This document shows positions 4,134 through 46,352 of a stretch of DNA of 64,000 nucleotides, piece by piece. The stretch spans positions 29,055,079 to 29,119,078 of the forward strand of contig CM049307.1 in assembly GCA_026874595.1 (NCBI GenBank). Reading direction: 5' to 3'. The stretch's first letter is position 1. The number at the start of each line of letters is the position of its first letter. The DNA comes from Sipunculus nudus (Eukaryota; Annelida; Sipuncula; Golfingiida; Sipunculidae). The notes beneath the pieces were generated by a model. The model had not been told where the DNA came from. It saw only the letters and a program-made list of their open reading frames with translations, and searched no databases. A program made the translations under genes and the position numbers.

Positions 4134-4260
4134 CCGGCGGCTGAGCCGGTGTTTAATAATCGGCGGCGGCTGGCGCAATTCGGCGGCTCAAGAAAACTAT
4201 CGGCGGCGGCTTGCTTATAAAATAAAACGGCGGCGGCTGGCTCAATTCGGCGGCGGCTCC
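4134..4260. repeat. CGGCGGCGGCT minisatellite, 20/27-bp spacing
   Basis: Six CGGCGG cores at about 4135, 4161, 4181, 4201, 4228 and 4248, alternating near 20 and 27 bp, embedded in AT-rich linkers such as TGGCGCAATT and AAAACTAT. It stands out as a GC-rich island of about 125 bp in an AT-rich neighbourhood. Confidence 0.75.
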
Positions 4261-4340
4261 CAGGTCTGTTGCTATTCTCTACCCATTCAATCAATTGGCG
4301 GCAAAACCAAATTTTCATTGGGGGACCAAATAGTAGGCCA

Positions 4341-4365
4341 GTATATACATATATTTACACGTGTG

Positions 4366-4402
<37 letters not shown>

Positions 4403-4439
4403 ATGTATTTATATATATGTGTGTGTGTGTCTTTACATA

Positions 4440-4499
<60 letters not shown>
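4341..4499. repeat. (TA)n / (TG)n compound microsatellite
   Basis: Interrupted TA tracts with a short GTGTGTGTGT section near 4419-4430, ending in a long perfect TA tract. It is followed by a run of G (about 4525-4536) and a GGGGGATATCCCC block also seen, in related form, after the TA array at 854. Confidence 0.95.
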
Positions 4500-4501
<2 letters not shown>

Positions 4502-4599
4502 CCGAAGCCAGACCCTATTGGCCGGGGGGGGGGGGCAGTAAGCAGATTCGAGGGGGATATCCCCGACAGGGGAGGGTGAGGAAAATTTTGAAAAACTGT

Positions 4600-5181
4600 A
4601 TGTATACTACTGCATTCTGGTGCATCTTTGCTGTCATTTATTAGGCTACGCTTAATTAGTGAAACAGTACCTCCTTCCGGCCTACGCCCCCCCGCCCCCT
4701 CCTGGTTTCGCCGCCTATGATAGGCCTACATGGTTTGAACCCTGAATTCCTGGAACCTCACAACTGAGGGATCTAAGCTGTATTCCTCTATATAAACAAA
4801 TACATATATTATAAATAATTGAGACTTTTGCCCACCTGCTCCTTTTAATACTTCTAAAATTCATGTGAAACACATGATTTAAGTCACCAATATTTTATAA
4901 AAAAATCAGCATTACCAATATTATATTATGGTGTATTTAGCTTCATTCCCTCGAAATATCAATTGATGGTCTTTCGATATGTCCAATTCAAACTTTCCTT
5001 AAGAATTCTACCTTATAGATCAGACCTTTGGTCGAGCAATCATTTTCACTCATAGTTGTTTGGAGGTAGATGATATTATTAAGAATATCATTAAATCACT
5101 GAATGAATATAATAATATATGAATTATTGTTTATTAGTTCACTAAGAGCTAGATTAATATCATCATTTGATCGTTTAATAG
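4600..5181. other. Intergenic, no gene seen
   Basis: AT-rich sequence immediately left of the solo LTR. It contains a C-rich patch near 4680-4710. No gene, RNA or defined repeat was recognised. Confidence 0.5.
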
Positions 5182-5476
5182 TGTAATTATAGCTGGGGTT
5201 TTAGTTGTAATGGGTAGATATTTTACGCGCCACCAGAGCTGGTCCGTGATTGGACGGGGGACCGGAAAGATGTGGAGATCTGGCGCGACCGAGGGGAGAG
5301 ACAGTTTGTTTTCGCTGGCGCTGGAGTTATCGAGGGATATTAGACTGAAGAACCGAGAGGATAGTGTGAATAACGGGGTCAGGAAGTAGGCTGAGTGCTA
5401 AGCATTACACTGTAAGTAAATTATAAACTGTTGTTAATTGTTGACAACTGTTGATTAGTTTCTGTGGCTGAGAGGT
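5182..5476 (+). mobile_element. Solo LTR of a Gypsy-type retrotransposon
   Basis: Starts TGTAATTATAGCTGGGGTTT and ends near GGCTGAGAGGTA. It aligns along its length with 9747-9977, which is missing about 60 bp in the middle, and at its 3' end with 45541-45610. It carries AACTGTTGTTAATTGTTGA near the end and an AATAAAC-like signal in the sister copies, consistent with R/U5. No internal retrotransposon sequence follows here, so it is best read as a solo LTR. Target duplications could not be defined. Confidence 0.6.
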
Positions 5477-5531
5477 ATTGTAAGACATCAGGCCTACTAC
5501 CCCTCATCTATTTTTGGACTGACCCATCAAG

Positions 5532-5722
5532 CGGCCACCCCATTGTAAAGGGTATAAGTCGATTTCGGCCGCCGGCCTCTTAAAAACGGAAATATCGGCC
5601 GCCAGCGCCCAGCGGGCAACCATTGCGGCCGCAACCCCGACGATGCCACTGCTCGGCCCCGACTCTGGCCAGTCAACCATATCGGCCGCGACTTGGGCTG
5701 CAGGGCACCATTTCGGCCGCCG
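5532..5722. repeat. 30-bp minisatellite with CGGCCGC core
   Basis: CGGCC cores at 5532, 5566, 5596, 5626, 5654, 5683 and 5714, giving intervals of 34, 30, 30, 28, 29 and 31 bp. Most are preceded by ATTT, ATAT or CATT and followed by GCC or GCG. The sequence is GC-rich and CpG-rich in an otherwise AT-rich region. Confidence 0.75.
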
Positions 5723-5920
5723 GGCTACCTCATTACTAGCCGCCGTTCTTATGGACTACCTAATTACAACATACGCGGCTACGCATTAAGTCCTAGCTGA
5801 TTAAACCTTAAATGTGAATTAAGCCTAATCATTGGAAGAACTCGAGCGTACACATTTCAGTACACTCGTTTACACAAACACCTTCAAACAAAAGCACGCA
5901 ACCTCATACAGAAATAAATA

Positions 5921-6645: not shown

Positions 6646-7907
6646 AACAAATAAAAATTTATACACCATTTTTAGAGTTTCATTTTTATTTGTTAGCAAG
6701 ATGTGTATAGTTTAAATTTATAGTTTTAAGACATAGTAATGTATGTACATATTTTGGGATAGAAAGTTTTCTTTTATGACCTCTGTATATATAGTTATGC
6801 AAGTAAGTGAAGTTTAAATGTATTTATTTCAAATGGATTTTACAAATAGCAAAATGAACTGATTGACTTATCCTTTTAACATACAATATAATCATGATAT
6901 ATATTATGATAAATATATACCATATAAACATTAGGATTGAAGTGAAAAGTAAAAAATTATAACATGATCAAACTTAATTAATCGTATTTATCAGAGGATA
7001 TATTAAACATATTTATAACTCGATCATGCATCGGTACACACGTCATAAGAAATGCAGCAATTATATACACAAACCACACAAATATAACTATATATATAGA
7101 GAAAATATGTATATATATGTAGAGAGAGAAGGGAGGAGAGAGATCAATAATTATTTATTGGTAGTGCCTGTTAATAAAATATGAGACGATTTGCTTAAGA
7201 TACATCACGACAATTGAAACCTGTTTTTTTTTCTATCCTTTTATATACATTTGTTAAAAAAAGTTTAGGACAAATAATGTTCTATATTATTCAATGCAAA
7301 TATGTGTGTTAAAATTCGAGATTTTTACTTACGCATATTTCTTATAAATATGACTAATATTTTGAATAAATAATATTTTTATTAAGTCCATCAAATTTCT
7401 GGTTGAATAAGCTAGGCCACTGGGCCCATGTCTGGTTGGCACTTGGTCAAGTCATTTTAGCGTGTTAAGGGGCTAAACGATAATCGACATTAGGCGAAGT
7501 GCAGTAGCCTGCCGCGACCGTTCTAGCTCCCTGTTTATCACGTTTAACCATTAGACAGCCACTTTTGTTAAGGACAGATCTCTCGGCTATTTCGGGATCT
7601 AGACCTTCAATTCTGTGTTGTTTTCTATTATCTGTGGGAAAAATCCTTCAATGGCGAGCGGTTACCAGCTCGTAAATCTAAACAAAAAATTACCTGCAGT
7701 GATTCGAACCTGCATTTTTTACAATATTTGTTCTTTAAGATTTTAAAAATGATATGCCACACATAAAGTACTTAGGTGGATAAATTAAGAAGAGTGAAGA
7801 TGAAGAAGGCCGCCCAATTCAGAAGTTACAGATTCTTGGAAATACTAAGGTATATGAATTTTTTGTTTGTGTTGTCATAGGGAACAATGTATGCTAAGTA
7901 CGTATCT
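6646..7907. other. Intergenic, no gene seen
   Basis: AT-rich sequence. A B-box-like element on the minus strand near 7694-7706 has no matching A box, so no tRNA is called. No coding frame is supportable. Confidence 0.5.
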
Positions 7908-11379: not shown

Positions 11380-11852
11380 CTGTACAAATGTCAATTTTTA
11401 AGAATAATAAAGGAGTAGGATTGACGAAAATAGCCCAAAAATTAACACGTTACGTCTTTAAGGCAAAATTTTATTTCACCGTGTAGCGAAGGTTCTTCGA
11501 ATTCTATTGATGCCAAACTTATGTAATTATGATGTTATATTAAATTGTTATGGTCCACAAAAAAAATGGAAAGTCGCTCCTGAAAAAGTTTGAAAATTGA
11601 GTTCGCAGCTTGCATAAATTTGTTTCAGGGTATTGTATTTGCCACATTTATATGTTTCGAAACTCCTGGGAATGAGTGAAGTATACCTTAAGGATGGAAA
11701 CTAGGGGGGAAGAGGATTGCACTTTCAAACCAAGGTTCTTGCGCCAAGAGGTGACGGCCAGAGGGGAGGTGAAGGGGGGGGGGGGGGCTCAAGGCCGAAA
11801 TAATTAGCTTAAAACGTAATAAAAAGGGGGTTACGGCCCAAAAGGGGTTGCG
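11380..11852 (+). repeat. Dispersed repeat, block A copy interrupted by LINE
   Basis: Aligns end to end with 45900-46345 in block B, including AAAATAGCCCAAAAATTA, CACGTTACGTCTTT-type, AAGTCGCTCC, the G-run (about 11775) and CCGAAATAATTAGCTTAAA. The alignment stops at 11853-11859, where the CR1-like LINE is inserted, and resumes at 18393. This is one of the markers proving the segmental duplication. Confidence 0.75.
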
Positions 11853-11859
11853 AACATAT

Positions 11860-12289
11860 TTATTTATTAATTTATTAATTAATATATCTTTATTCAGGGT
11901 GGCTTGTTCAGAATATACTGATGTTCCACAAGGCCCTGAGAGTAATTGGAATTTTAAACATGATCAAATAGCATGACAGTAATATAAAAGCAAACATGTA
12001 TGTGCAGAATATTGTAACTGAATAAAACATATATTGTTATTTCCTGTACTAGTATGATCATTATTAGGAGTTTATTATAGAATATTATTTAGATATTCAT
12101 AGGATATTCAGGTTATTAACAATGTTGCTAACATTGTATGAAATAAGTGCAAAGAATAATATAAACCATAAGTGCAATGTATGCAAAGTTATGTTAGTGT
12201 TAATTCACTTATTGGTATTCGTAAAGCATAAAATATCAAAATGCATGCATAACATGTAAAAGTGGTATAACAGATTTATTGTAATTATG
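11860..12289 (-). other. 3' UTR and tail of the CR1-like LINE
   Basis: About 430 bp downstream of the ORF2 remnant, ending at 11860-11885 in a repeated ATTAATAAA-type sequence. Short tandem tails instead of poly(A) are typical of CR1-like elements. Confidence 0.6.
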
Positions 12290-14852
12290 TCAAGTGTTTA
12301 GTGAATATTGCTTAAGATCTTTTTTGAACTTATCTAGATTATCTATCTTACGAAGAGCTTCCGGTAACAAATTCCATAATTTCGGTCCCTGATAAATAAA
12401 AGATTTTCGCATCAATTCAGTTCTAACTGTTGGTACTTTCACTTGACAAGAGTATCTCGTGTTATAAGAGTGTATTTCAGATCGGGTTTCTGATAAATAA
12501 TTAAGATAACAAGGTGCTAGGCCATTAAGGCATTTAAACATGAATATATTAGAGAGGTACAATAATCGTTGATTGATTTTTTGCCATTTTAAGGCTGATA
12601 TCAATGTTAAACTAGCTGTATTCCTATCATAATTCCCAGAAATTATACGGGCAGCTCTATTCTGGAATTTCTGGAGAACGTTCATATTTGTTTGGCTTTG
12701 ATGGCCCCAAATGATTAAACCGTAATCAATATAGGGTTGTATGGTGGTCATATAAATATGAACGAGTTCCTGTGAAGGTAAAACTTTACTCAGACGAGCG
12801 AGAGCGCCTAGTTTAGGTTTTAATTTGGAAGCAAGTTCATTGATATGTGCTCATCAGCAAATAGGCTAATGTTACTATATTTTGGTATGTTACAAACATC
12901 ATTAAGATAAATTAAGAATAAAAGTGGTCCGAGAACAGAACCTTGAGGGACTCCCATAGAAATCTGCGAACAGTCAGAAATTGATCCATTATATTTAGTA
13001 GCTTGAGTTCGATTACTTAGATACGATTTAAACCACTCTAATTCTCGATTCCGTATTCCATATTTATAAAGCTTGTCAAGTAGCCTAGTGTGACATATTG
13101 AATCAAAACATTTACAAATATCAAGAAAGCAAACTACTGTTATATGTCCTTTGTCGCATGCTTTAACCCAATCAGATGTACTGCTGAGTAGTGACGTAAT
13201 GGTCGAGTGTTGTTTTATGAATGCCGATTGTGATGAACCTAAAAGTTTGTTATCATGAATAAATGAATATAACTGCTGGTGAATCACTTTTTCCATTATT
13301 TTAGCTACATGTGAAATTACAGAAATCGGGCGATAATTACATGGATCATCCGCAGGTCCTTTCCCTTTATAAATTGGCGTAACTCTTGCCTGTTTTAAAT
13401 CTGTGGAACTATACTTTCCTCTAAACTCATGTTAACTATGGTGCATAGGTAAGGCGTGAGCTCTTCTGCAGCTAGTTTTAACAAATACGCATCTACACCT
13501 AAAATATCTATATTAAAAGAATTCGGCATATTTTTAAGTTGCCATAATATTTCATTTTCTTGGATAGAAGTAAATTTAAATATGCAATTTTGTGATTTAA
13601 GCTCTGGAATGTGATTTTCACATGAATTTTTAATTTTAGATGCAAATTTAGGACCAATGTCGACAAAATACTCGTTGAATTGTGATGCTGTTATTGTGTT
13701 AGAAGAGCTAGAATTATTTTTATTAAGGGCAAAGCGTATTACTTTCCACATTAGTTTTTGGTTACCTTTAGCGTCTGCAATTTTACTAAAGAAGAATTCA
13801 CGTTTAGCGTCGCGAGTAAAAGTAGTTACTTGATTACGTAAGGAGCGGTATACCGTCATGAGGTAGGGATCATTGTATTTACATGCAAGTTTATGTGCAG
13901 CATCCCGTTCATGCATTAAGTGGATCAGATCGTCAGTTAGCCATGGACATTTTTTCGATTTTACTCTGTGCGTGCGCAATGGAGCGTGCATATTAGAAAC
14001 AAATAAGATAACATCATATAAGTACCTCCAAGCCGTTACTACATCAACGTGTTTAATATTATTAGCGTTAGTCATTAGCTGTGAAATGTCATTTCTAAAA
14101 CATAAATCATCAAATTTACTGTAATATCTCCTTTCGACATAATTATGTGTGTTAGTTTGTTTACAGTTTGTTTTCAAGGTGGTATATGTTATATAATGAT
14201 CACTTAACGAGTATTGTAATACTCCACTTGAAATATGCAATTTAGGTAGAGTTGAGTAAATATGATCTATAAGTGTGCTACATGTGTTAGTAACTCTTGT
14301 TGGTTCACGTATTAGTTGATCAAAATGAAAGAGGTTGCATATTTCTACTGATCGCTTATAACCAATAGAATTTATGTCTGTAATGTCCATATTAAAGTCA
14401 CCTAGAATAATGGTCTCATTAGTTCCAATTACGACACATTCTAATATTTCACAAAGTTCGTCATAATTTGCACTATCGGATGATGGACAATATACACAAC
14501 ATAACGTTATTTGTAATTTGCTGCTCAGTTCGACGTCAACACTGATGAGTTCAACATATGTATACTTATTAACTTTGTGTGGTGTCACTTTAAATCTTGA
14601 TTTCACATATATACAGACCCCACCAGCATGGTATGCTCTGTCATTTCGGAAAAGTAGGTAGTTATCAAGTTGAATTTCAGAACTATCCACGTAATCAGTC
14701 AACCAAGTTTCAGTAATACAAAATATATCAAAATCTTGTTCAATGATTATTTTCTGAAGTTCCGTAAACTTATTCATTATGCTTCTGCTGTTGATATGTC
14801 CAATCTTAATGCGGTCACTTGATTTTGCTGTTTTTGTGTTATTTAATTCCAA
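12290..14852 (-). pseudogene. LINE ORF2: APE-type endonuclease and reverse transcriptase, broken
   Basis: The first frame (14852-13395, 485 residues) contains the apurinic-type endonuclease: GHINSRSIMNKF, ITETWL, ILGDFNMDI and SDHYITY. The RT continues in a second frame (about 13410-12820) with NYRPISVISHVAK, SAFIKQHST, LDICKCFDS and GVPQGSVLGPLLF, ending LFADE where FADD is expected. Directly after FADE the sequence jumps to the INELASKLK segment, so several tens of residues are missing. A third frame (12751-12290) carries the C-terminal part (IQPYIDYGLIIWG, NRAARIISG). The enzyme would nick target DNA and prime reverse transcription of the element RNA. At least two frameshifts and the deletion make this copy non-functional. 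Confidence 0.88.
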
Positions 14853-16154
14853 GGAGGCTTTATGAACCGACTTTTCATTTTGACCATTACCTATGCATCA
14901 TGGGATTCCTAGGAGGGGGTTTGATTCCCTGGTTGACATGACTGATGCGGACAGGACAGTTCTCATATCTGTGTCCTATGCTACCACAGTGGAAACACAT
15001 GAGTCCGTTTTGTTTTCTGCATTGTTCAGCTGTATGACCAATTTGCCCACATGCAGCACATTGTAGAATACTGTAATCGTATTCCTGATGTGGTAAATAC
15101 CGCTGATGGAATGCGCTTGTATTAGTCGACTGGCTGTTGTGTGAATTTAAAGGCACATTTCGTCGTGACTGTTGAAAATATTTAGTCTGATCTGGGTAAA
15201 CTTTATGTAGATCATTGTACTGCGATACATATGCCGCGTGTGTGTTTGCTTGTGTACCCGGGTTGGATGTTCCTGGTTGACGGTCTAGTGGAGGTGTTAG
15301 AGTGTAGGGATGACCAGGGGTAAACCTACTCTCGATTGGGAGATACACGGGAACATTTCCCTGGTATTCAAGTCTATCGGGCTCCAACTTTCTGTTTATC
15401 AAGGCATCAGCCGCACGACGGTAATTTCGTTGCCAGGGATTCCATCCATGATGTTGATTTTCATCACCCGTCCTAACAAAACTTTTCATGGTCTTACCAT
15501 GACGGGGTCCATAATTTCTTCGTTCTCCTGTCTTATATCCATGTCGCCTTATGTCAGCCCCTGGACGAGGAAGTGGGGGCCATTCCTCGTGATTCTTGTT
15601 ATGGAGAGTGTAATCTTTGGTGTTACTTTTCTGATCAAAGTACTGTGAAAATTCCTTTTCGTCAAGGCCATTCATTTGATCAACAACAATTTCAGGGTCA
15701 GCACACGCCAGATTACTCAATAATGCCAGTGTCCCCCGAACTGAGAAATGCAAACCATCCGTCTGATACAGATGTTTGTTAATAGAACCATTTCAAGTAG
15801 GAAAGTTTGGTCATTGTCAACAAATTTACAGGATAGTGTTTCACATGTATCCTTTAGAGCTTTATTGACCTTCTCACACATATTTTGGTGTTCAGTAATG
15901 TCCATCCTCGGAGGGATGCTTAATATTGTAACATCATTACAAGTTTTCTTGGATGTTTTGATGAGTCTTTTGTAATCATGGAGTATCCTGTCAGTATTAG
16001 CCCCACGAAGAGAACAATCATTTGTACCGACTAAGCACACAATTTTATCAAAATCGCCTTTCTGGCTAACCGAGATGCAACTTTCCACATCATTAATGGT
16101 AGCACCTGGGAGTGTGCGGATTCGCGTTGACGGTGCAAGTGATTTCGTTTTCAC

Positions 16155-16592
16155 CGGTCTTAGTAAGGAATCCCCAACAACCAATACTCTATTATTCATT
16201 GTTTTATTGGTGTTCTTTGTAACCGATCTAATCTTGTTCTGTGGTTGGGTATTTGCTGGTGTTACCGTTGTTATAGCGCTGCCCACCTGATCACTGATCT
16301 GATCACCGCTAATTGGTGACAAGTTCACTTGGGTACTTTTTGAGGAGAGCTCTTTGTCAGTGTGTGCATTATTCAGCTCCCGTAGTACGGAATCCCCTAC
16401 AACCAATACTGAATCATTACATGAAGTGCTTTTTGTAGTCGAGCTAATCTTGTTCTTTGGTTGGGTATTTGCTGGTGATACTATTGTCATAGCCTGGCCC
16501 ACCTGCTCAATAATCTGATCACTGTTAATTGGTGACGAGTCCACTTGAGTACCTTTTGAGGATTTCTCTTTGACCGTGTGAGCGTCATTTAG
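16155..16592 (-). repeat. Internal tandem duplication in ORF1 spanning the GDS motif
   Basis: Two diverged protein-level repeats of about 72-74 residues. Each begins LN(D/N)AHT, passes through SPANTQP or TPANTQP and ends VLVVGDS(V/L)LR. Copy 1 (about 16592-16377) carries a lone GDS block. Copy 2 (about 16376-16155) carries the GDS block that continues into the full esterase. The reading frame is kept. Confidence 0.8.
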
Positions 16593-17659
16593 CGTCCGTA
16601 GGCCAGTCAGCTCCAGTTTCAATGCACAGTTTTCATCATGAATCATTTTGAGCTTTTCTGTTAGCTCCCTTTGTTTTTGTTGTTCATCCGACATTAGTTT
16701 AAGGATTTCATATACAGAGTTCAGCTTTGTTGGCATTTCCCTGCACCTCTCACATGTATACATAACACTACCGTGTAGTTCTTTTTTCAGGCACCATTGT
16801 CCATTCCATGCATATAATGCAACGAATATCAACAATCTTTTCCTTACATTTTTTCTTTTTGTCTCCCTTTCTCATGCTATCGTCATCAGCCAACATATCT
16901 CCATTATGTTCCGCTTGTAGGTTACCCTCTGCTTTAGTTTCATAATTAATTTGACCGCTGCTTGTACCATCTTGTGTTTCATCATGTGTCACCATCAATG
17001 TATTCTGTGACTGTGATTTATCTAGTTCTGTGTATGTTATGTCACTCAATGCAAGCAGTTCATCCCCGTCATCTCGACATAATTGTGACACAGGCGAGTC
17101 AGCAAGTAGCACTTGTTGGTTATGTTGTGTACATGTTTCCCCAGTGCTGAGTCTTAATAATAACGGTGTCAAGGGATTTTCTGAAAGTTTGGGTGAAGAA
17201 GATTTTACTGAAACTTCATTGATCTGATTTTCAGCTTCACAGTTATTGCCACAAAGATCATTTTCATTATCAGTTTGTACCACTCTTTTGATCCCTATCT
17301 GTTCCTTATCTGCTAGAAGGAGCCATTTTTCTTTGTCGTTTGTGTAAAGTTTGTCAACTTGTTCACAGAGAACAGGAAAATGTTCGGAGTGCCACAACAT
17401 ATATGAATTTCCTTGGACTAACAGATTTGCTGTAGATTTGTAGAATGTGAGAGAAATAGACCCATATAACACTTTATCAACTGTTGAACAGTAGCCACTT
17501 TTAAATTGCAGTCCATGCTTTATTTTTCCTGGATGTTTTGGTACTGGTTTTGTTTTGTAAAACTCTTCACATACTTCAAGCCAAACTAGTAGTGTTTTGG
17601 GATCAAGATGCACAGTTAGAGAGGATGTATTCTCTTTTATGCCCACCCTGTGTTGTTGG

Positions 17660-17868
17660 TAGGCTTGTACCTCATCATTAAGCTCAATGGTCAGAACTCG
17701 AAACGCAGCGGACATTTCCTGGAATGTTTTTATAGCTGATTTATCTTTGTTTTAGTCGGGATGGTACTTCCCCGCTAGCTCACGATACCTGTTTTGAATA
17801 TCGTCAACTGATGCATTATCAGAGAGTTGAAGTACTTTTAACGCTTCAAGTATTTCACTTTTTGTCAT
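17660..17868 (-). other. J (DnaJ) domain at the N-terminus of LINE ORF1
   Basis: In one frame with the rest of ORF1. It shows the J-domain order: helix I (EILEALKVLQL, then SDNASVDDI), helix II (QNRYRELAGKYHPD), HPD loop, and helix III (AIKTFQEMSAAFRVL). HPD is the motif by which J proteins stimulate Hsp70 ATPase activity. The stop codon after HPD is a single change from AAA to TAA, assuming the usual HPDK. The region is inside the LINE boundaries set by the target duplication, so it is part of the element and not flanking host sequence. Confidence 0.85.
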
Positions 17869-18392
17869 TTTGCTTTTTTTATTTCAAAATATCACTGTAA
17901 AATGTTCAGTATGTTGAGGCTCATAAAAGATCAGTTACTTTCTACTGGAAGACATGATTCAACAGTGCAGAGTCCAGAGTTCAACTCAGTGCGATCTTTT
18001 AAATTCCGTGAGCGATAATACAATTTGATAGTGAAATTTACTCACCAATGCTTTAAAGTCATCATGAATGGCACTTTTGTGTAAATCACAACGCATGCAG
18101 TAGTGTATATAATCCTAGCACAAATGTTGATAGTAGTATCTGTCTTTAAATGCAGAGTACATATATGTGTATATGAAGCCGCGGTGCATTATGGGGGTCA
18201 GACCTTGACGCTCAGAATACTTAAATAGCCGAGTGGTACTCTTGTAAGTCAATTTCTGCGCTGTTTTTTAACACTGAGTCGCCTGTAATGCTGTTTGCCT
18301 TTCTTATGTCTGTTTATTCCGGTGGGGGGAATCCCCACAGAGGGCCAGTTCCGTGAACGTCAATGCTCAGTGGACAGTGAACGGTAATAAAA
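17869..18392 (-). other. 5' untranslated region of the CR1-like LINE
   Basis: About 524 bp between the ORF1 start and the upstream copy of the target duplication. No open frame of note. It should hold the internal promoter of the element, but no motif could be assigned with confidence. Confidence 0.5.
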
Positions 18393-18546: not shown

Positions 18547-19270
18547 ATTGCAAGATAACGTGTGACCTAGTCCCGATTAAGCAAACATTATATAGACGCT
18601 TCTTTCTTTTAATTTATTTGCCACAAATAATCATTTATTCTGACAAGCTTATATGGTAAGATATGGCCCTGGTCTTTAAATATTCGTATCGGGGTAACAC
18701 TCGGCGGGGGGGGGGGCAGTGCATTTTTATCAGAGAGCCCTCGAAACATATTTGAATATACTAAAAAATTTGGTACCGGGTTGACACCGGGATGCATCCG
18801 GAAGACATTTGGACAGATCTGCACTGGGATACATCTGTGTGGCATTGAAAATGTGGCATTGACAATGTGCGAACAAGCCTTAAGTTCCCAACAAGGACAG
18901 AAGTAGTGATATAAAGTTCATGTAAAATAGATATGGATCAGAAACATTGAGCGGTTAGACCCTTCCCAGTGATTAAGTTTGCTTAACTGACCGTTGACCA
19001 GTGTCACACTTCGAAAAGTAAATGACCAACCCTTACTTATTGAGATGAGTCAATGCCTACCCTTGATCAATCTCGTCCGGTACTGTTGACTGCTGATCCT
19101 ACTCTCCCTAATGATCGGGGCACGGTAACAAACCAGACTTTGTCAGACAATCTGCCAGCTGTGTTTATTTCAAAATCTTTAAGGAGTTTCACCAGATGAG
19201 ACCTTTGTATATTTTAAGAAACATATTATATGCAGATGCTTTCCCCTAACAATAAATTGTATATCTTTTG
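18393..19270. other. Upstream flank of UGT gene A
   Basis: 18393-18480 and 19150-19270 align with the block B flank (46470-46690). Between them lie a TA array (18483-18546), a G-run near 18705 and about 600 bp absent from block B. The first exon of the UGT gene should lie upstream but could not be recognised. Confidence 0.5.
18483..18546. repeat. (TA)n microsatellite
   Basis: Perfect TA array with one phase slip near 18535. Confidence 0.95.
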
Positions 19271-19273
19271 TAG
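19255..19273 (+). promoter_or_regulatory. 3' splice acceptor before UGT A coding exon
   Basis: A pyrimidine-rich tract ending TTTTGTAG lies 5 nt before the first ATG. Block B has the same arrangement, TCTCTTTTACAG followed by GTGTGATG. Conservation of the AG while the tract varies supports a real acceptor and therefore a 5' UTR intron. Confidence 0.65.
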
Positions 19274-19278
19274 GTGTG

Positions 19279-20853
19279 ATGACCATGTGTCCAAGGTGTC
19301 GCAATATGCCGTGCATCACTTTCGTATGTATGTTTATGACCCTCATTGGATTGAGCCAGTCAGCGAACTTACTCCTCGTTCCATTCGACCACGCCGGACA
19401 TACCAACTTCTTCATTATTGCAGGTCAAGCACTCAAGGCGAAAGGTCATAATGTCACAATTTTCACAAATATCAAGTATCGTTCGGCGGTTGAGAATGCC
19501 GGCCTAAGGTCACTAGCATGGAAGCCAGAAAAGGCAATAAGCTTCCATGATGACAAAGAAATAACAGAAGCTTTTTCGCGTATGTCCTTCCGAAAAGATA
19601 TACCACCGAAAGAGACTTTTCAAACTGCTTCAAAAATAGTAACAAGGATGTCCGAGCAGTGTAATGAAATTTTGGAAAATAAAGACTTGCAAAGGACCAT
19701 CAGAGATTCAGTTTTTGACTTAGCCATCATGGATGGACACTTTCTGGTGAAAAGCTTTTACATAATTCCGTACAAGCATTACATCAAGTTTGTGACACTC
19801 ATGGTTATTGTGGAACCTTGGTCCTACAGAGTCCCTAGTCTTCCATCAGTGGAACCTCATCCTTTTCTGGACAGTACCAACGAGATATCGTTTACTAAGA
19901 GAATTAAAAATTTTGTTTTATACAGCGCATTACCTTTCTCCATGTCATTCTTTGAGCCAAATCATCTTGTATCAAAGTATGCTCCAGATCGTCCACAAAA
20001 GACGATCTCAGAAATATACTCTTCAGCAGAGATGGTTTTGATCAACTGGGAAATCTATGCATTGGATTATCCCAGGATATCGGCGCCGCATTATAAGTTC
20101 ATTGGTGGACTCGGTGCTAAGCCTGCAAAGTCATTACCCGAGGACCTTGAGGATTTTGCTGCCAACGCAGGTGCTCTGGTACTGGTTAGTTTTGGTTCTA
20201 TGGTAAAGGTTTTGCCTGAGTGGCTCCTTAGAAAGCTGTTTAATGTATTCCGCGAGATGCCACACATTCGGTTTATTATGAAACTTGGAAACGGTTTCCC
20301 TGGAGAGGTTCCTGAAAATGTAAAGACGATGAAGTGGATTCCGCAGAACGATCTTCTTGGACATCAGAAGGTACGAGCCTTCATTACACATGGCGGAAAC
20401 AACGGCCAACTTGAAGCTCTATACCATGGTGTACCAATGCTATCAGCACCCGTATCCTCGGACCAAGTCCACAATTCAATGCGAATCCAAAAACGAGGTT
20501 ATGGAAAAATATTATTCTTAATTGAGTCAAATGTGGAAGAAATCAAGGAAACCGTGCTGGAATTGTTAACTAATGATTCGTACAGAATAAATATAAAACG
20601 GGGTTCGGAGATCTTCAGGAGTCTGCCAAAAGCCGAAGACACGTTGGTGTTCTGGATTGATCATATTCTGCAATTTGGAAGTGATCACATCAAGTCCCCT
20701 CATATAGATATGCCTCTGTACAAATTCTTTATGTTCGATGTTTTCTTATTCTTGGGTACCATTGCGCTTTGTATCATTATTCTAGTAATCGTAAGCATAC
20801 AATATTGTTTCATCTATTTCTGCCAGAGGAATGCTAAAGAGAAGCAACATTAG
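19279..20853 (+). CDS. UGT: UDP-glycosyltransferase A
   Basis: Membrane UGT of the GT1 family, transferring sugar (usually glucuronic acid or glucose) from UDP-sugar to small lipophilic acceptors, facing the ER lumen. There are 524 codons in one exon, the normal length for the family. Residues about 11-29 form a signal peptide. The N-terminal acceptor half contains FDHAGHTNFF. Residues about 368-396 match the whole UGT signature (FITHGGNNGQ to SAPVSSDQ). Residues about 483-516 form the single transmembrane anchor, and the tail ends KEKQH, a KxKxx ER-retrieval signal. I chose the ATG at 19279, just after the splice acceptor; a second in-frame ATG lies two codons later. The nearest relative in the window is the gene at 46698. 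The frame is intact, so it is probably functional. The substrate cannot be inferred from sequence. Confidence 0.93.
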   Translation: MTMCPRCRNMPCITFVCMFMTLIGLSQSANLLLVPFDHAGHTNFFIIAGQALKAKGHNVTIFTNIKYRSAVENAGLRSLAWKPEKAISFHDDKEITEAFSRMSFRKDIPPKETFQTASKIVTRMSEQCNEILENKDLQRTIRDSVFDLAIMDGHFLVKSFYIIPYKHYIKFVTLMVIVEPWSYRVPSLPSVEPHPFLDSTNEISFTKRIKNFVLYSALPFSMSFFEPNHLVSKYAPDRPQKTISEIYSSAEMVLINWEIYALDYPRISAPHYKFIGGLGAKPAKSLPEDLEDFAANAGALVLVSFGSMVKVLPEWLLRKLFNVFREMPHIRFIMKLGNGFPGEVPENVKTMKWIPQNDLLGHQKVRAFITHGGNNGQLEALYHGVPMLSAPVSSDQVHNSMRIQKRGYGKILFLIESNVEEIKETVLELLTNDSYRINIKRGSEIFRSLPKAEDTLVFWIDHILQFGSDHIKSPHIDMPLYKFFMFDVFLFLGTIALCIIILVIVSIQYCFIYFCQRNAKEKQH

Positions 20854-45899: not shown

Positions 45900-46352
45900 C
45901 ATTCATGCGCCTAAATAATCTCTGTACTAATGTCAATCATTTTAAAATAATACCGGAGTAGGCTGTACGAAAATAGCCCAAAAATTATCATGTTACGTCT
46001 TTCAGGCAAAACTATACTTCACCGTGCTGCTAAAGATCTTCGAATTCATTTCATGCCAAATCTATGCAATTATGATGTTAAATAAGAAAGTTATGTTCCA
46101 TTTACCAATAGTAAGTCGCTCCAGAAAAGTTTTAAAATTGAGATCGCGGCTTGCAAAAATTTGTTTCAGGGTGTTTCCCAACTTTATATGTTTAGAAACT
46201 CCTGTGAATGAGTAAAGAACACCTCTAGGATGGAAACTAGGGGGAAGAGGTTTGGGGAAGGTAAAGTGGGGGGGGGGGGGGGGGTCCAGGCCAAAATAAT
46301 TAGCTTAAACCGAAAAAGGGTGTGACGGCCAAAAAGGGATGGCGGACATATT
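45900..46352 (+). repeat. Dispersed repeat, block B copy
   Basis: Best-preserved copy of the family; see 11380-11852 for the aligned landmarks. Includes a long G-run (46268-46285). It continues into a 125-bp tandem duplication (46318-46560, TGTGACGGCCAAAAAGGGAT at 46321 and 46446). Confidence 0.7.

Follow-up and report, generated by a model that had tools for sequence, protein, structure and literature searches.

Viral J proteins such as polyomavirus T antigen carry a J domain that lets a parasitic genome use host Hsc70, and in the J-protein family the HPD motif is required for stimulation of Hsp70. Among LINEs, the ORF1 domains of 448 Jockey-superfamily elements were mapped by Metcalfe and Casane in 2014 (PMC4120745). 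Table 1 of this survey lists PHD, RRM, CCHC, coiled coil, esterase, Tnp22 and zf/lz but no J domain, and in a word search of the article "DnaJ" occurs only within a journal citation. Esterase ORF1s are reported there only in two vertebrate subgroups of the set, and Schneider et al. (2013) included chordate, cnidarian and sponge sequences in an alignment of LINE esterases (PMC3905857). Among the titles and abstract openings listed from the open-access PMC literature on DnaJ or J-domain proteins and retrotransposons, none described a J domain in a LINE. An excerpt of one article contains a ZAP interactome table with DNAJA1, DNAJA2 and HSPA4, and nothing on ORF1p and Hsp70 (PMC4441479), and an excerpt of another uses HSP70 as a loading control (PMC7873242). 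The LINE described here (J-LINE) has an ORF1 of the esterase kind extended by a J domain, a combination that was not found described in the literature searched. An earlier note made from the sequence alone (the original prediction) had stated that no CR1-type ORF1 with a J domain was known, in agreement with the survey and with the PMC literature searched.

The window, the whole stretch of Sipunculus nudus DNA that was analysed (64,000 nt, GCA_026874595.1, contig CM049307.1), contains the J-LINE on its minus strand. The frame starting from the ATG at 17868 reads MTKSEILEALKVLQLSDNASVDDIQNRYRELAGKYHPD*NKDKSAIKTFQEMSAAFRVL in the window copy (asterisk, stop codon). With the stop read as X, the frame matched Pfam DnaJ at E 1.9e-13 and 50.7 bits (cut-off 27.8), and the C16 copy of the element, from the same genome, matched at E 1.3e-13 and 51.2 bits. 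The core of the domain lies at the ORF1 N-terminus, at 17689..17838 of the minus strand (residues 11-60), and helix II, HPD and helix III follow one another in order within the segment. Searched against the PDB, the J segment gave 42 matches at E ≤ 0.001, almost all of them bearing DnaJ or J-domain names, and the best solved match was DNAJC5 (E 1.2e-8). The J domain that had been predicted in the frame at 17660..17868 is thus real, its HMM score being significant in both copies. A chance resemblance to a J domain, in favour of which nothing was found, was rejected on these Pfam matches and on the order of the motifs, and its probability is negligible. Of the 63 positions of the Pfam model, 4-54 are matched; the domain's two ends (the start of helix I, and helix IV) thus went unrecognised, and this counts against a functional J domain. 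No DnaJ family other than PF00226 matched the 987-residue ORF1 of the C16 copy in Pfam, the zinc-finger and C-terminal domains of class A and B DnaJ proteins being absent. The protein is like class C J-proteins such as DNAJC5 in having a J domain with HPD, and unlike DNAJC5 in that its remainder is a LINE ORF1.

In the C16 copy (L009), a single frame is open for 987 codons from the ATG and encodes the J domain, a D2-containing stretch with no domain assigned, a degenerate PHD, the SGNH esterase and two CCHC knuckles; frames with the same beginning are open for 729 codons in C9 and 518 codons in C3. The claim that J is fused in frame to an esterase-type ORF1 is right for the element, because the C16 frame stays open into the esterase and the knuckles, while the window frame runs beyond the TAA down to 16768 and then shifts. 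D2, a conserved segment that follows J (17329..17631, minus strand), was found in the S. nudus genome in J-bearing copies only and had no PDB match at E up to 10 and none in Pfam; it may resemble segments of other animal LINE ORF1s. The PHD-like stretch (16743..16821, minus strand) was located by aligning the C16 ORF1 to the sister LINE L061, and no Pfam PHD match was obtained in the window copy or the C16 ORF1. Its middle ligands are gone in the J-LINE, leaving CxxC...CxxC, whereas L061 retains them. A tandem duplication of ~220 bp (16161..16601, minus strand, 78% identical in self-BLAST) doubles the GDS motif, at 16175 and 16397, and is also present in the C16a, C9, C13 and C17 copies. The SGNH esterase lies at 15742..16175 (minus strand), and its motifs GDSLLRP, GTNDC and DGLHFS in the C16 ORF1 correspond to the GDS, GxND and DxxH motifs of an esterase-type (type IV) ORF1; Pfam Lipase_GDSL_2 scored 35.0 bits (2.5e-8) in the C16 copy, above the cut-off of 32.9, and 28.8 bits (2.1e-6), below it, in the window copy. 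Two CCHC zinc knuckles end ORF1 (14941..15063, minus strand), with Pfam zf-CCHC matching two stretches at 9.5e-6, above the cut-off, in the shorter piece of the window and at E 0.0036, below it, in the 987-residue ORF of C16. ORF2 encodes an AP-type endonuclease (14196..14768, minus strand, Pfam Exo_endo_phos 4.6e-12) and a reverse transcriptase (RT; 12850..13344, minus strand, Pfam RVT_1 2.8e-25), as expected for a LINE. The window copy is decayed, with the TAA after HPD, frame changes that split the PHD-like stretch and the esterase, and a loss in RT at 12851 of ~260 nt that are present in most other copies.

On its ORF1 content, the element is classed as a CR1/L2-like LINE. In CR1/L2 LINEs with an esterase-type ORF1p (ZfL2-1; type IV; PMC4120745, PMC3905857), as in the J-LINE, ORF1 combines an SGNH esterase with a coiled coil (a probable one in the J-LINE, judged by eye) and lies before an ORF2 with endonuclease and RT. 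Unlike them, the J-LINE adds the N-terminal J domain, D2, the degenerate PHD and the two CCHC knuckles.

When the 5′ portion of the element was searched as DNA against the window's own genome (1.43 Gb, 153 contigs), at least ten places on eight contigs were detected, window included. All ten copies found with the 5′ region encode the J segment, namely the window copy (C2), C16a, C9, C3, C13, C17, C15, C7a, C7b and C16b, the last having J only to about codon 58, after which similarity jumps far downstream. A search with D2 alone (E up to 1) found at least nine copies, one of them (C17) split into three pieces; all were J-bearing, and no copy with D2 but without J was present among these nine.

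The limits of the element were defined by comparison among copies. The whole insertion in the window, ~6.3 kb at 11857..18161 of the minus strand, begins at 18161, where similarity to the C16, C9, C3, C13 and C17 copies starts (18149 for C15), and ends with an AATA-type tail near 11857, similarity to the C9, C3 and C13 copies stopping at 11857-11861. Sequence beyond this 3′ end (11501-11860) recurs at 46044-46352 and 1823-2014 with 70-72% identity and represents another repeat family, and a 556-codon open frame beside the LINE, at 19183-20853, resembles a UDP-glucuronosyltransferase gene. Five copies (C9, C3, C13, C17 and C15) have a common 5′ terminus ~50 nt upstream of the window's end; compared with full-length copies, the window copy is therefore truncated by about 50 nt in its 5′ UTR (17869..18161, minus strand), and C16a falls about 18 nt short of the common end. 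No homology was detected among the 1.1-2.1 kb upstream of these five copies (matches over 60 nt, E ≤ 1e-5). In an RT search in which 150 of 7768 candidates were scored, 39 matches, window included, showed at least 62% identity and the rest 40-49%. The 3′ end was located at query 7136-7145 in 23 of 29 RT loci other than that of the window, and 17 of the 29 lose similarity within the stretch examined, at query 4254 to 5724, the other 12 reaching its edge. The common 3′ end and the varying points of 5′ loss in these loci indicate target-primed reverse transcription with 5′ truncation, and dispersed copies with these ends are what is expected of a LINE. As five copies with the same 5′ end lie in unrelated flanks and 23 of 29 RT loci have a common 3′ end, the J domain travels with the LINE.

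The original prediction had placed J inside an element bounded by a 7-bp target duplication. That J belongs to the LINE stands, given its presence in ten of ten copies with common ends, but the duplication was not confirmed, no clear target duplication being found at the junctions of the five copies tested (window, C9, C13, C3 and C16a). The best repeat at the window junctions is a 6-bp ATATGT that overlaps both of them, C9 and C13 have only 6-7 bp matches away from the element start, and C3 and C16a have no junction match of at least 6 bp, though C16a is no fair test because its 3′ tail is lost.

These copies bear on two other accounts of how J came to lie beside an esterase. A host DnaJ exon or retrocopy might have landed by chance beside or inside one LINE insertion, as could be supposed while only the window copy, with its stop, was known from the original prediction. 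This was rejected because there are ten J copies on eight contigs, five of them starting at one 5′ terminus amid unrelated flanks, and because J is in frame with the esterase in C16; moreover, a comparison with six host loci (four distinct) revealed no donor, the best match, 51% identical over 49 residues, being too distant for a fresh one. Such a local capture is very improbable. Equally improbable is the spread of a single J-LINE fusion by segmental duplication rather than retrotransposition, for which the C7a and C7b copies (L023 and L028) speak: they are 24 kb apart and have ~250 nt of upstream sequence in common that was not seen in other copies, and so may be a local duplicate. As a general source, segmental duplication was rejected on the unrelated flanks of C9, C3, C13, C17 and C15, which have no common sequence before the 5′ end, and on the differing 5′ cuts with a common 3′ end. 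In C7a, C7b and C16b similarity begins only about 70-85 nt before the ATG; about 1 kb further upstream in C7a there is a 66-nt piece resembling the 5′ UTR, and the deviating upstream sequence of the C7 pair may thus equally well reflect an insertion or another 5′ UTR.

The HPD motif, located between helices II and III as in the J-domain family, is retained in seven of the ten copies, comprising the six closest to one another (window, C16a, C9, C3, C13 and C17) and C16b. The usual loop is KYHPDKN, with KDHPD in C13. It is lost in the other three, which read HPG (C15), NPD (C7a) and NP with a frameshift (C7b); these losses count against a functional J domain, and all three copies also have stops or frameshifts nearby. 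The TAA right after HPD (17752..17754, minus strand) had been considered a later mutation of the window copy, and it is indeed missing in eight of nine other copies (C16a, C9, C3, C13, C17, C15, C7b and C16b); its presence at the same codon in the decayed and dissimilar C7a is probably a coincidence. Thus, J lies in the mobile unit, shares a reading frame with the esterase and the knuckles, and has HPD in most copies found.

Selection on J was estimated by NG86 over codons 1-76, from copy pairs that differ by 4 or more changes. The dN/dS ratios were 0.08-0.27 among the six closest copies and 0.12-0.25 between these and C16b. Comparisons with C15 gave 0.31-0.70, lowest with C13 (0.31) and highest with C9 (0.70), and a decayed C7 copy against any other copy gave 0.39-0.87; C7a against C7b gave 4.56, on 1.5 synonymous changes. 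The C9-C15 ratio and those involving C7 copies count against a functional J domain. We also compared the number of synonymous changes with that expected if the same base changes were placed at random, a calculation that treats sites as independent and involves few changes. Among J changes common to at least two copies, which should mostly be older than the insertions, 10 of 23 were synonymous in the ten copies (one of the 23 being a stop) against 4.8 expected (P 0.011), and 3 of 4 against 0.7 when the C7 copies were left out (P 0.016). Private J changes were synonymous in 12 of 46 cases in the ten copies (10.5 expected, P 0.35), which again counts against function, and in 11 of 25 without C7 (5.8 expected, P 0.016). 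For D2 in seven copies, all 3 shared changes were synonymous (0.9 expected, P 0.025), as were 9 of 33 private ones (8.1 expected, P 0.42). These data are moderate evidence, on small numbers and with sites taken as independent, for purifying selection during the active life of the element and for later decay of dead copies. J is very probably a genuine functional part of ORF1p. An unlikely alternative is that J, though part of ORF1p, has no co-chaperone action, either by loss or from the start, and serves only as an interaction or oligomer-spacing module; some J-like proteins function without HPD, three of ten copies here are without it, and the selection signal is modest. The retention of HPD in the six mutually closest copies and C16b, in the usual KYHPDKN loop, argues against such a module. 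The J domain probably works through Hsp70.

The sister LINE copy L061 in the same genome (C7:4700700-4704300) encodes a PHD and an SGNH esterase as the J-LINE does, and in the esterase region the two ORF1s are 35% identical; the sister PHD retains its middle ligands. No J or D2 was seen in this one copy, residues 1-330 of the J-LINE ORF1 having no significant match in its 3.6 kb (best E 1.8). Of 54 J matches listed in the genome, 8 were copies of the J-LINE and 46 were not. Ten of these 46 were inspected, three as full frames (L001, L002 and L029) and seven as stretches of 801 bases, and none showed ORF1 features; six of the seven stretches contained HPD-bearing frames resembling exons of cellular J genes, and the seventh (L091) contained no HPD frame. 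Since no J or D2 was seen in the sister copy and the other J loci inspected showed no ORF1 features, J with D2 looks like a gain of the J-LINE lineage. Among viral contigs, the similarity of 33 candidates at 26 loci was confined to J (query residues 1-74), with no RT and no ORF1 match ending beyond residue 90.

Taken together, these observations suggest, with a probability of roughly 0.75, that a LINE lineage with PHD and SGNH esterase gained a real J domain and D2 at the N-terminus of ORF1p and spread with both, and that ORF1p, as a J-protein, brings host Hsp70 to the RNP, the last step being one that we infer. ORF1p would act as a class C J-protein. Through its knuckles and coiled-coil-like stretch it would multimerise and hold the element RNA in the RNP, and J would dock host Hsc70 via HPD and stimulate its ATPase. 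Hsc70 would then be delivered to ORF1p itself, either to fold it or to dismantle the oligomer ahead of target-primed reverse transcription. This targeting of Hsc70 to ORF1p itself is the reading that we favour, although whatever goes beyond an HPD-bearing J domain in ORF1p we infer from the sequence. That the Hsp70 step is specifically RNP remodelling or disassembly is a tentative proposal, with chances somewhat below even. Equally tentative is a stronger version, in which the element encodes a retrotransposon Hsp40: by capturing J into ORF1p, the LINE would have made host Hsp70 an obligate motor of RNP remodelling, and ORF1p would be both the particle protein and the co-chaperone of its own disassembly, a LINE counterpart of viral J proteins. 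As with polyomavirus T antigen, a parasitic genome carries a J domain, and the J-LINE may likewise use Hsc70; unlike in that case, the domain sits on a LINE RNP protein, the replicon and the protein being unrelated to the viral ones.

The assembly and maintenance of LINE RNPs, and their opening for target-primed reverse transcription, are still poorly understood; here a J domain in ORF1 points to a host factor, Hsp70, and offers a residue-level handle (HPD). The J-LINE adds a cellular co-chaperone module to the ORF1 domain list of the 448-element survey, suggesting that ORF1 shuffling goes beyond nucleic-acid-binding, chromatin-reading and esterase modules and that the element brings its own chaperone helper.

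Separately from the J-LINE, intronless DnaJ frames of 379 or 388 residues were observed on nine contigs of the assembly (C61, C62, C72, C74, C77, C79, C83, C89 and C90). Seven of these contigs (L002-L008) span 0.2-2.2 Mb, and the L002 frame looks bacterial; the nine contigs possibly belong to a bacterial companion of the animal.
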